Below are positions 45,612-64,000 of a stretch of 64,000 bases of DNA, one piece after another (the stretch's first letter is position 1; every line of letters begins with the position of its first letter). The DNA lies in contig NZ_VIRS01000008.1 of NCBI RefSeq assembly GCF_006912135.1, positions 62,001 to 126,000 on the forward strand, given 5' to 3'. The translations under genes were made by a program, and so were the position numbers. Below the pieces are notes generated by a model that saw nothing but the letters and a program-made list of their open reading frames with translations, did no database searches and was not told the DNA's origin. This DNA is from Cryptosporangium phraense (GTDB lineage: Bacteria > Actinomycetota > Actinomycetes > Mycobacteriales > Cryptosporangiaceae).

Positions 45612-46283
45612 ATGGGTCGTTACGTCAAAGAGCGCGGCAAAGGCGAGGAGACGTACTACTGGTATCCAGGTCAGAAGGACGACTGGATGCAGGCCGCTAT
45701 CGCCCTGGGGAGTGGCCTGGTCGCAGCGGCGGCCATCCGGGTGGCCACCGGAAGCACGATGTGGGCGGCGGCGGTCGGTTTCACGGTGACCGCGGCGCTC
45801 TCGGGGACCTACCTCGGCCGGCGGGACGCGAAGGCGCTCGCCGTGACCGATCCCCGGGGGCTGGCCGGTGCGGTGTTGATCGCGTTGGCGTTCGTCCGGG
45901 CCCTGGCCAAGGGGTCCGGTGCGGCGCTGGCGGCGATCGTGATCGCCCGGACCGCGACGCCCAACTTCTGGTACGAGTGGGTCCTCCCGCTGGTACCGGC
46001 CGTGGTCGGGGCGATAGCGCACCACCTCGGGATGTTCTACGAGAACCTGGAGAAGGCCTCCAAGGTCAAGGTCAAGGCGTCCGAGTCGGAGCTGGCCAAG
46101 TTCGCGGCCGAGATGAAAGCCGCGAAGGAGGCCAAAGCTGCGCAGAAGCCGGAACCGGCCCCCGAGGCCCCGGCCACCCCTGACCCGGCAACCGAGACCG
46201 CGCCCTACGTGGCCGCTCTCCCGGGTGAGGTCGACGAGCCGCAGGGCAGGCAGGCGGTGTTCTCGCGCCGCCGTCCGGCCTGA
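45612..46283 (+). CDS. Membrane protein with Ala/Pro-rich tail, function unknown
   Basis: 223 residues from ATG 45612. After a basic N-terminus with YYWYPGQKDDWM there are four hydrophobic segments (~26-45, ~50-66, ~87-110, ~118-137); the last loop is followed by a charged helix rich in Lys/Ala/Glu (~140-178) that could be a coiled coil, and a Pro/Ala tail. No domain recognised. It immediately precedes the potassium-channel remnant, though I see no proof that the two were linked. Confidence 0.7.
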   Translation: MGRYVKERGKGEETYYWYPGQKDDWMQAAIALGSGLVAAAAIRVATGSTMWAAAVGFTVTAALSGTYLGRRDAKALAVTDPRGLAGAVLIALAFVRALAKGSGAALAAIVIARTATPNFWYEWVLPLVPAVVGAIAHHLGMFYENLEKASKVKVKASESELAKFAAEMKAAKEAKAAQKPEPAPEAPATPDPATETAPYVAALPGEVDEPQGRQAVFSRRRPA

Positions 46284-46330
46284 CGGTCGTCCGACGCGCC
46301 GCGTCCCCGGATCCACGGAAAGATTGATGA

Positions 46331-46939
46331 ATGCGCTGGTGGGGATCTGGGGACGGGCGTCTGTCGGCCGCTCGGAGGAACGGGGCCTACGAGCGGTTCG
46401 TCGATCGAACCGACGACGTCATGCTGGTGACCGCTGGCAGTTCGTCCGTTCGAACCTGCCGGACCTCGTGATCGTGCTGGTTCCGCCGCTGCGCAGCCTC
46501 CGGCTGGTGGCGGCGCTCATGCGTCTGCTGGGGTTGGTCAGCGTCGTCGGGCGGCTGTCCCGGCAGAGCCTCGAGGTACGCACCGGTGCGTAACCCGGTG
46601 ACCGCCCAGGGGCGGTGGATGGCCGGCGTCCTCATGCTGGCCGGCATCGCGATCCTGGGGATCGTCACCGCGAGCATCGCGGCCTGGTTCATCGGCCAGT
46701 TCTCCGCGGCCTCGGCCGCGGTCACCCACGCGGTCTCGGACGCGGTCGAGGACGCCGTCGACGACGCGGTCGACCAGCAGGCGGAGTTGCTCGCCGCGGT
46801 CCGAGACCTATCTCACCGATTGGAACGTTTAGAGAGTCGGGTAGGCGACGCGGTGCGCCATCTTGACGCCGGGCGACACGCCGATAACGCCGAAACCGGT
46901 ACAGAACCGGCTCTGATGCGCGACGATCAAGGCACTTGA
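46331..46939 (+). pseudogene. Decayed voltage-gated potassium-channel-like gene
   Basis: Three pieces in two reading frames resemble one channel. Piece 1 (46331-46471, 46 codons) has AYERFVDRTDDVMLV, a typical N-terminus; it then hits a stop. Piece 2, shifted frame (about 46430-46593), has DRWQFVRSNLPDLVIVLV then RSLRLVAALMRLLG, the S4-like Arg-rich segment, before TAA. Piece 3 (46586-46939), in the first frame, is PVTAQGRWMAGVLMLAGIA followed by TM6-like GIVTASIAAWFIGQF and a coiled-coil tail with DLSHRLERLESR. The S1-S3 helices and the pore with its TVGYGD filter are absent. At least two deletions and a frameshift are needed. Piece 3 could still be translated from GTG 46586 as a one-helix protein. 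Confidence 0.62.
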
Positions 46940-47051
46940 CCGGGCAGAACGGCTTGGCACGACACCCGCCCCGAGGGCATCATGAGTGTCGACCTACCGA
47001 GGGATACAGGGCGTTGGGGAAGGCGTACCTCGTTCCTACGGGAGGTCTCCG

Positions 47052-47543
47052 GTGCCAGCACGTGGCGTTTTGTACGTCCACTCCTGCCCGCCTGCGGTGT
47101 GCCCGCATGTGGAGTGGGCTGTCGCACGGGTCCTTGGCGTGCCCGTGAACTTGAAGTGGACGGCGCAACCTGCCGATCCCACGACCCTGCGAACCGAGTC
47201 CCAGTGGACCGGTTCGCCGGGGACGGCAGGCGAGATCGCCACTGCTCTGCGTGCCTGGCCGATGACTCGGTTCGAGATCACCGAGGAACCCAGCCCGGGC
47301 GTCGACGGGGAGCGGATCATGCACGTCCCGGGCCGGGGGGTGCACCGCAGCACGATGAGCGCCAACGGCGACATCCTGGTGTCCGAGGACCGGCTGCGCA
47401 GCCTGCTGGCCACCGCGGTCGGCCCGGACGCGATCGCCCACGGCCTGGAGAAGCTCCTGGCCGCCGAATGGGACCTCGAACTCGAGCCGTACCGTCACGC
47501 CGGCGACGGGGCCCCGGTCACCTGGCTGCACCGGACAGGCTGA
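47052..47543 (+). CDS. DUF3145 family protein
   Basis: 163 residues from GTG 47052, five bases after GGAGGT; the frame is open upstream without a second RBS. The start PARGVLYVHSCPPAVCPHVEW then NLKWTAQPADP, TESQWTGSPGTAGEI, FEITEEPSPGVDGERIMHVP and YRHAGDGAPVTWLHRTG define the conserved DUF3145 of actinobacteria, function unknown. It stands 13 bases before the GH3 gene on the same strand, so they may be cotranscribed. Confidence 0.9.
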   Translation: MPARGVLYVHSCPPAVCPHVEWAVARVLGVPVNLKWTAQPADPTTLRTESQWTGSPGTAGEIATALRAWPMTRFEITEEPSPGVDGERIMHVPGRGVHRSTMSANGDILVSEDRLRSLLATAVGPDAIAHGLEKLLAAEWDLELEPYRHAGDGAPVTWLHRTG

Positions 47544-61763: not shown

Positions 61764-64000
61764 TCGCCCGGTACCCAGCGCGAGATCTGGTCGGGCACCT
61801 GACGCATCCAGTCACTCGACGCGATGACCGGGCCCTCGGCGTCCGCGAGCTGGGCGGTCACCCACGGCGTGCGCGGCTCGGCGTCCGGATGGAGCAGTGC
61901 GTCGGCGTCGGCCGCGACGGCGTCGCGCCGGAGCTCGGTCCAGGACGTCACCGACCACACGTCGGCCGCGACGTTCCAGTCTTCGGCCAGCAGCTCCTGG
62001 GCCCGCAGGGCCCAGGGCAGGGCCACGCCGGAGGCGAGCAGCTGCGCGCGCCGCGCGCCCTCGGCCGTACGCGGAGCCTCCGCGTACTTGTACATGCCCT
62101 TGAGGATGCCCTCCTCGGACACGTGCTCCGGCATGGCCGGCATGACCATCGGCTCGTTGTAGACGGTCAGGTAGTAGTAGATGTTCTCCGGGTTCTCGCC
62201 GTACATCCGGCGCAGCCCGTCCTCGGTGATGACCGCGACCTCGTACGCGTACGCCGGGTCGTACGAGACGACCGCCGGGTTCGTCGCCGCGAGCAGCAGG
62301 GAGTGGCCGTCCTCGTGCTGGAGGCCCTCGCCGTTGAGCGTGGTGCGCCCGGCGGTGGCGCCGAGCACGAACCCGCGGCCCAGCTGGTCGGCGACGGCCC
62401 AGAAGCCGTCGCCGGTGCGCTGGAAGCCGAACATCGAGTAGAAGATGTAGATCGGGATCATCGGCTCGCCCTGGGTGGCGTACGACGTCGCCACCGCCGT
62501 GAACGACGCCACCGAGCCGGCCTCGTTGATGCCCTCGTGCAGGATCTGGCCCTGCTCGGACTCCTTGTAGGCGAGCATCAGTTCCCGGTCGACCGACGTG
62601 TACTGCTGGCCGTGCGGCGAGTAGATCTTCGCGGTCGGGAACAGCGAGTCCATACCGAACGTCCGGGCCTCGTCCGGGATGATCGGCACGAAGCGGTGGC
62701 CGATGTTCTTGTCCCGCATGAGGTCCTTGAGCTGCCGGACGAACGCCATCGTGGTGGCGATCTTCTGCTTGCCCGAGCCCTTCTTCAGCTGGGCGTACAT
62801 GTCCTTGCCGGGCAGCGCGAGCGGCTTGCTGCGGTCGACCCGGCGGGGGATCGCGCCACCGAGCTGGCGGCGACGTTCCATCAGGTACTGGTACTCGTCC
62901 GAATCCTGGCCGGGGTGGTAGTACGGCGGCAGGTACTTGTCGAGCTTGTCGTCCGGGATGTCGAGGAAGAGCCGGTCGCGGAATTCCTTGAGGTCTTCCT
63001 CGGTCAGCTTCTTCATCTGGTGGGTCGCGTTGCGGGCCTCGAAGTGGCTGCCCAGCGTCCAGCCCTTGATCGTCTTGGCCAGGATCACGGTCGGCTGGCC
63101 GGTGTGCTCGGTCGCGGCCTTGTAGGCGGCGTAGAGCTTCCGGTAGTCGTGGCCACCGCGCTTGAGGTTCCAGATCTCGTCGTCGCTCAGGTGCTCGACC
63201 ATCTTGCGCGTGCGCGGGTCGCGTCCGAAGAAGTGCTCGCGGACGAACGCGCCGGACTCGGCCTTGTAGGTCTGGTAGTCACCGTCGGGCGTGGTGTTCA
63301 TCAGGTTCACCAGCGCGCCCTGGGTGTCCGCGGCCAGCAGCGGGTCCCACTCGCGGCCCCAGACGACCTTGATGACGTTCCAGCCGGCGCCGCGGAAGAA
63401 CGACTCCAGCTCCTGGATGACCTTGCCGTTGCCGCGGACCGGACCGTCGAGGCGCTGCAGGTTGCAGTTGATGACGAACGTCAGGTTGTCGAGCTCCTCG
63501 CGGGCGGCGACGCCGATCGCGCCGAGCGACTCGACCTCGTCCATCTCGCCGTCGCCGAGGAACGCCCAGACGTGCTGCTGGCTCGTGTCCTTGATGCCCC
63601 GCGAGTGCAGGTACCGGTTGAACCGGGCCTGGTAGATCGCGTTGATCGGGCCGAGGCCCATCGAGACGGTCGGGAACTCCCAGAAGTCCGGCATCAGCCG
63701 CGGGTGCGGGTAGCTCGAGAGGCCACCGCCCTGGTGGGAGAACTCCTGCCGGAAGCCGTCCATCTGGTGCTCGTTCAGGCGGCCCTCGAGGTACGCCCGC
63801 GCGTACATGCCGGGGGAGGCGTGCCCCTGGAAGAAGATCTGGTCGCCGCCGCCCGGGTCGTCGTGGCCGCGGAAGAAGTGGTTGAAGCCCACCTCGTACA
63901 GGCTCGCGCTCGACGCGTAGGTGGAGATGTGGCCGCCGACCCCGATCCCCGGGCGCTGGGCGCGGTGGACCATGATCGCGGCGTTCCAGCGCATGTACGC
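61544..64000 (-). CDS. aceE: Pyruvate dehydrogenase E1, homodimeric type (5' end off the window)
   Basis: The frame is open to the right edge; about 818 of the usual ~910 residues are present, so the N-terminus is missing. ThDP-binding [15 protein letters not shown] and [52 protein letters not shown], and the C-terminal transketolase part with [20 protein letters not shown] and [11 protein letters not shown]. It decarboxylates pyruvate and acetylates the lipoyl group of E2. The AceE type is the actinobacterial form working with a separate E2. Overlaps the convergent GT87 gene by 220 bases. Confidence 0.96.

Follow-up and report, generated by a model that had tools for sequence, protein, structure and literature searches.

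The interval 46331–46939 of the window (the whole stretch of 64,000 nucleotides that was analysed) is most probably the gene of a single-domain six-helix potassium channel that has recently become a pseudogene through a real loss in this lineage. The original prediction of a decayed potassium-channel gene at this place is supported: intact syntenic orthologues occur in all three congeners compared, and in the window both the reading frame and essential domains are destroyed. With the selectivity filter and the pore helix absent, no conducting subunit should be produced from the remnant. One or two deletion events after the split from the congeners would account for the present state, and the loss would have come too late for the former selection pattern to fade from the codons that are left.

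Genomic context of the remnant

The window corresponds to positions 62001–126000 of contig C8 in a draft genome of 8.46 Mb and 87 contigs, and has a G+C content of 72%. Three genomes of the same genus (G001, G002, and G003) were used for comparison at the locus. Their common gene order is the 223-residue gene, the channel, DUF3145, GH3, and KASII, where the last two names are our assumption from the sequences of these downstream genes. The neighbours of the remnant in the window are:

45612–46283, + strand: upstream syntenic neighbour of 223 amino acids, intact, 66–68% identity at the same place in all three congeners
46986–47543, + strand: downstream syntenic neighbour DUF3145 (PF11343), intact; Pfam E-value 2e-69 over frame residues 28–183

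A Pfam search with the upstream neighbour yielded nothing above the cut-off. The DUF3145 protein is 95–98% identical to its counterparts in the three congeners, and its true start is probably a GTG near 47052. Among 27 loci inspected with 1.5-kb flanks, DUF3145 adjoins the channel match in the four loci from the three congeners and in none of the 23 others.

Three colinear pieces of one channel gene

The remnant consists of three pieces in two frames:

46331–46428, + strand: piece 1, frame 2; channel residues 1–33, the N-terminus as far as the beginning of S1 (tblastn)
46429–46592, + strand: piece 2, frame 1, 164 bp; residues ~83–137, the S4-like segment and the S4–S5 linker (tblastn and register)
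46593–46939, + strand: piece 3, frame 2; residues 188 to the stop, S6 and the coiled-coil tail (tblastn)

The naming of the helices S1–S6 presumes the usual helix order of the family and was used together with the Pfam match. According to the ORF list, the frame of piece 3 is open from a GTG at 46586 and comprises 117 codons.

A tblastn search with a full-length channel, as had been proposed, recovered all three pieces in order, and the earlier description of colinear channel fragments in two frames was thus confirmed with intact orthologues. The G002 protein matched with residues 1–32 at 46331–46426 in frame 2 (78% identity, E-value 8e-14), with residues 81–135 at 46423–46587 in frame 1 (75%, 2e-21), and with residues 187–289 at 46589–46933 in frame 2 (63%, 5e-40). 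For the G003 protein, the E-values of pieces 1, 2, and 3 were 5e-17, 1e-25, and 6e-57. As a control for chance similarity, the search was run on 1000 length-matched first-order Markov sequences; they gave three hits with E-values of at most 1e-3, the best being about 1e-4. Piece 1 aligns to the intact orthologues without gaps.

Profile searches were less informative. Pieces 1 and 2 had no channel match in Pfam, and comparison with relatives was therefore needed to decide on their origin. Piece 3 stays below the Pfam cut-off for PF07885 (Ion_trans_2; 16.6 versus 22.5 bits). In a PDB search, its top matches were potassium-channel chains, mostly named KcsA, with a best E-value of 5e-7.

Intact orthologues in the congeners

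At the syntenic place, each of the three congeners possesses one uninterrupted channel frame, of 318 (G003), 301 (G001), and 290 (G002) residues; the G001 frame ends with a TAG three codons earlier than that of G003 and has a shorter tail. The motif TTVGYGDRF is found in all three proteins. The G002 orthologue scores above the Pfam cut-offs, with 54.2 versus 25 bits for PF00520 and 61.2 versus 22.5 bits for PF07885, and has five further Pfam matches, all below their own cut-offs. The intact orthologue is thus not a two-domain potassium channel, as had been supposed, but a single-domain channel with six helices. Two NCBIfam channel models match two of the intact orthologues so far below the cut-off (at best 40.6 of 425 bits) that no equivalog name applies. 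Colinearity with one intact, continuous orthologue in all three congeners rules out that the pieces represent three separately conserved short genes.

When piece 3 was searched against 61 genomes (its own and those of 60 relatives), matches were obtained in 23, the own genome included, and the best three others were the congeners. In a collection of named genomes, a scan with the G002 protein alone found no relative, and one with the alignment of the three orthologues yielded 77 loci with 27–58% identity over the best segment, none of which is as near as the three congeners. Judged by record titles, two channel relatives (L172 and L114) lie on plasmids, of an Arthrobacter and of a Vibrio. The length of the coiled-coil tail varies among the intact channels of 318, 301, and 290 residues through acidic repeats around VESVED (L033, 8880–9833; L031, 8256–9158; L005, 943–1812).

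The genome under study contains two other Ion_trans_2 genes, located on contigs C7 and C2; the remnant itself was not matched in this PF07885 scan. G002, G001, and G003 have two, three, and three such genes, respectively, this channel included. Because two further genes are present, general potassium permeability need not have been lost.

Extent and register of the deletions

DNA alignments and the codon register locate the missing sequence at two junctions:

46428–46429, + strand: junction 1; 148 bp coding for S1–S3 absent compared to G001, G002, and G003
46592–46593, + strand: junction 2; 152 bp coding for S5, the pore helix, and the TTVGYGD filter absent

In the register of each of the three orthologues, the sequence breaks off behind residue 33, where 148 bp are missing, and again behind residue 137, where 152 bp are missing; the lengths are the same against all of them. 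Neither number is a multiple of three; their sum of 300 bp is, and piece 3 is therefore back in the frame of piece 1, while the S4 piece is out of frame. Reading from the old ATG ends at a stop at 46471, and a transcript from the old start would give a peptide of 46 residues. The inferred loss of S1–S3 and of the pore, including the selectivity filter TVGYG(D) and the pore helix, is thus correct in substance and has to be extended to S5. At least two deletions and a frameshift had been postulated, in agreement with the two missing stretches and the off-frame middle piece. With 300 bp absent, no re-framing restores a whole channel.

Translocation of the missing parts was rejected: when the intact G003 protein was searched against the own genome (E-value of at most 1e-3), only the three pieces were returned and no second copy of the missing parts. 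The direct repeats CTGGTGCTCGCCC and CTGCTGCTCGCCC, which are found near the ends of deletion 1 in G003, were considered as a substrate for slippage. This mechanism was rejected, because it should delete a length divisible by three and leave one copy behind, and the window contains no copy. In the relatives, junction 2 has an ACCGG stretch on either side; the ends may have been joined here by microhomology, with a few filler bases added.

Selection on the remaining codons

Pairwise dN/dS values between the window and the congeners were 0.11–0.16 for piece 1, 0.24–0.29 for piece 2, and 0.24–0.52 for piece 3, compared to 0.16–0.22, 0.19–0.22, and 0.28–0.47 among the intact genes. Over 167 codons without gaps, dN is 0.071 and dS 0.355 on the window branch, which corresponds to a ratio of 0.199 versus 0.242 among the intact genes. 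The neutral share of this branch, estimated from the same codons, is -0.056 with a bootstrap 95% interval of -0.254 to 0.140; decay would span at most ~14% of the branch.

In an odd-one-out test, changes were counted in four segments at positions invariant in the other three sequences. The counts were 3/25, 3/39, 0/33, and 4/30 for the window, 1/23, 0/36, 0/33, and 3/29 for G001, 1/23, 2/38, 0/33, and 0/26 for G003, and 4/26, 2/38, 0/33, and 8/34 for G002, where the window is placed between G002 and G001/G003 and the closeness of G001 to G003 lowers the counts of these two. Pieces 1, 2, and 3 all still look constrained, and relaxed selection is not detectable. It follows that either the loss happened very recently, or both cuts stem from a faulty assembly and the channel is not dead in the organism.

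Deletion in the organism or in the assembly

It is rather unlikely that the strain has an intact channel and that the draft assembly dropped two stretches of ~150 bp. Such an error would explain why the pieces lack any sign of relaxed selection, and the near equality of the two losses (148 and 152 bp, 300 bp in sum) fits it, as does the draft state of the genome with its 87 contigs. It is also slightly odd for natural decay that one gene suffered two deletions of ~150 bp and that its pieces contain no stop codon. Furthermore, a second frame on C8 (254016–255113) is net 147 bp shorter than in G001. Its gaps, however, are scattered in a proline-rich low-complexity stretch, and its frame is kept.

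The base rate of such events was estimated by comparing the ORFs of G001 (400 kb) with the whole contig C8 (268 kb). Among 209 shared C8 frames, seven were flagged as consisting of more than one piece, one of them being the channel. Two other flagged frames were aligned and neither shows a clean deletion; the second resembles divergence in non-coding sequence. No clean deletion other than that of the channel was recognised on C8, where three of the seven flagged frames, the channel among them, were aligned. A reverse scan kept 213 frames and flagged five (flags without alignment). Clean deletions are therefore not common in this part of the assembly, and this speaks for a real event.

Scans of the window with the ORFs of G001, G002, and G003 kept 54, 61, and 56 shared frames, respectively. 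The channel was flagged with G001 and G002; with G003 it was missed by the greedy filter, although tblastn and the alignment show the breaks. The three remaining flags give the impression of spurious or poorly conserved frames. The earlier statement that the neighbourhood is otherwise free of pseudogenes roughly holds, in that the G001 and G002 scans showed no convincing broken gene apart from the channel.

Coding potential of piece 3

It is very unlikely that GTG 46586 still serves as the start of a product with S6 and the coiled-coil tail, acting as a small membrane anchor or as a dominant partner of another channel. The 117-codon frame is open and is preceded by the following element:

46573–46576, + strand: GAGG, candidate fortuitous ribosome-binding site read from the sequence, 9 nt before GTG 46586

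Piece 3 could thus be translated from a GTG that, to judge from the sequence, was made at the junction, and the start features would have arisen by accident of the deletion. A frame-1 stop at 46591–46593 overlaps the start region and would allow reinitiation. In the S6 part, none of the 33 invariant amino-acid positions is changed; however, this is equally true for each intact orthologue as the odd one out. Pieces 1 and 2 are conserved as well, although they lie outside that product, and the conservation of piece 3 is therefore no evidence of translation. Further points against a small protein are that the flanks of the three relatives contain no such GTG here, that the locus is without a short gene in all three congeners, and that a promoter scan of 46200–46586 restricted to sigma-70-type sites found none. 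That the deletions created a new 117-residue membrane protein, with one S6 helix, a coiled-coil tail, and a junction-made GTG start, is hardly to be expected; such a protein would perhaps serve as an anchor, or poison the two channels that remain by joining them as a subunit.

The notion that the similarities are due to chance, or that three unrelated short genes are present, for which only the absence of Pfam channel matches for pieces 1 and 2 could speak, is practically negligible and is refuted by the colinear tblastn matches, the synteny in the congeners, and the far weaker hits of the Markov control.

Sequences flanking the remnant

Upstream of the old start codon, the window differs from the intact loci:

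46301–46330, + strand: diverged stretch before the start codon, without the GCACACTCGG motif of the intact loci

Over the last 20 nt before the ATG, G001 and G003 are identical (20/20), each of them matches G002 at 14 of 20 positions, and the window matches each congener at only 7–8. The spacing of GCACACTCGG, which is present in all three intact loci and absent in the window, would suggest, from its position, a -10 element of a leaderless transcript. The altered sequence may, on the other hand, represent ordinary divergence between species. A simple promoter scan of window positions 46200–47100 gave one site, at 46954–46983, downstream of the remnant; no terminator was found in the same range.

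The stretch between the remnant and the DUF3145 start (46938–47053) is identical at 104–113 of 115–117 aligned positions among the four congeners, the window included. Together with the first DUF3145 codons it was matched, mostly over its last half and with 71–95% identity, in 25 of 60 relatives. GGGGAAGGCG occurs in all eight loci compared, and ACCTC...GGAGGT in seven of them (ATCTC in L179). The latter lies 34–36 nt before the start, a spacing that is not in codons. This stretch may be a leader that hides its ribosome-binding site. An Rfam search with 46938–47053 yielded nothing at the gathering score, and the folding of the window copy is no better than that of shuffled sequences (z -0.35).

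Significance

The probable recent loss of one channel is ordinary gene decay and adds nothing new in kind to the knowledge of channels or of decay. It provides a clear example from a large high-GC genome for which intact congeners can be compared, and it argues against annotating 46586–46939 as a channel. Literature searches showed no such case, judged by title; PMC13345370 is a general paper on bacterial pseudogenes.

Comparison with known systems

Six-helix voltage-gated-type prokaryotic channels combine PF00520 and PF07885. The pieces in the window correspond to their N-terminus, S4, and S6 plus tail; unlike these channels, the window copy lacks S1–S3, S5, the pore helix, and the filter. 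Among solved structures, the S6 part of piece 3 is best matched by the second helix of potassium-channel chains, mostly named KcsA, with entry 3pjs_K, which we take to be KcsA, at the top (E-value 5e-7); the intact G002 orthologue matches the same chain with an E-value of 9e-27. In contrast to KcsA, whose subunits have two helices each, the ancestor of the remnant had six helices and its own coiled-coil tail.

With regard to its age, the locus can be compared to young bacterial pseudogenes (The Extinction Dynamics of Bacterial Pseudogenes, PMC2916853). That paper names Salmonella, whereas the present instance is one case only, from a large high-GC genome. Common to both is a recently disrupted gene in an intact neighbourhood.
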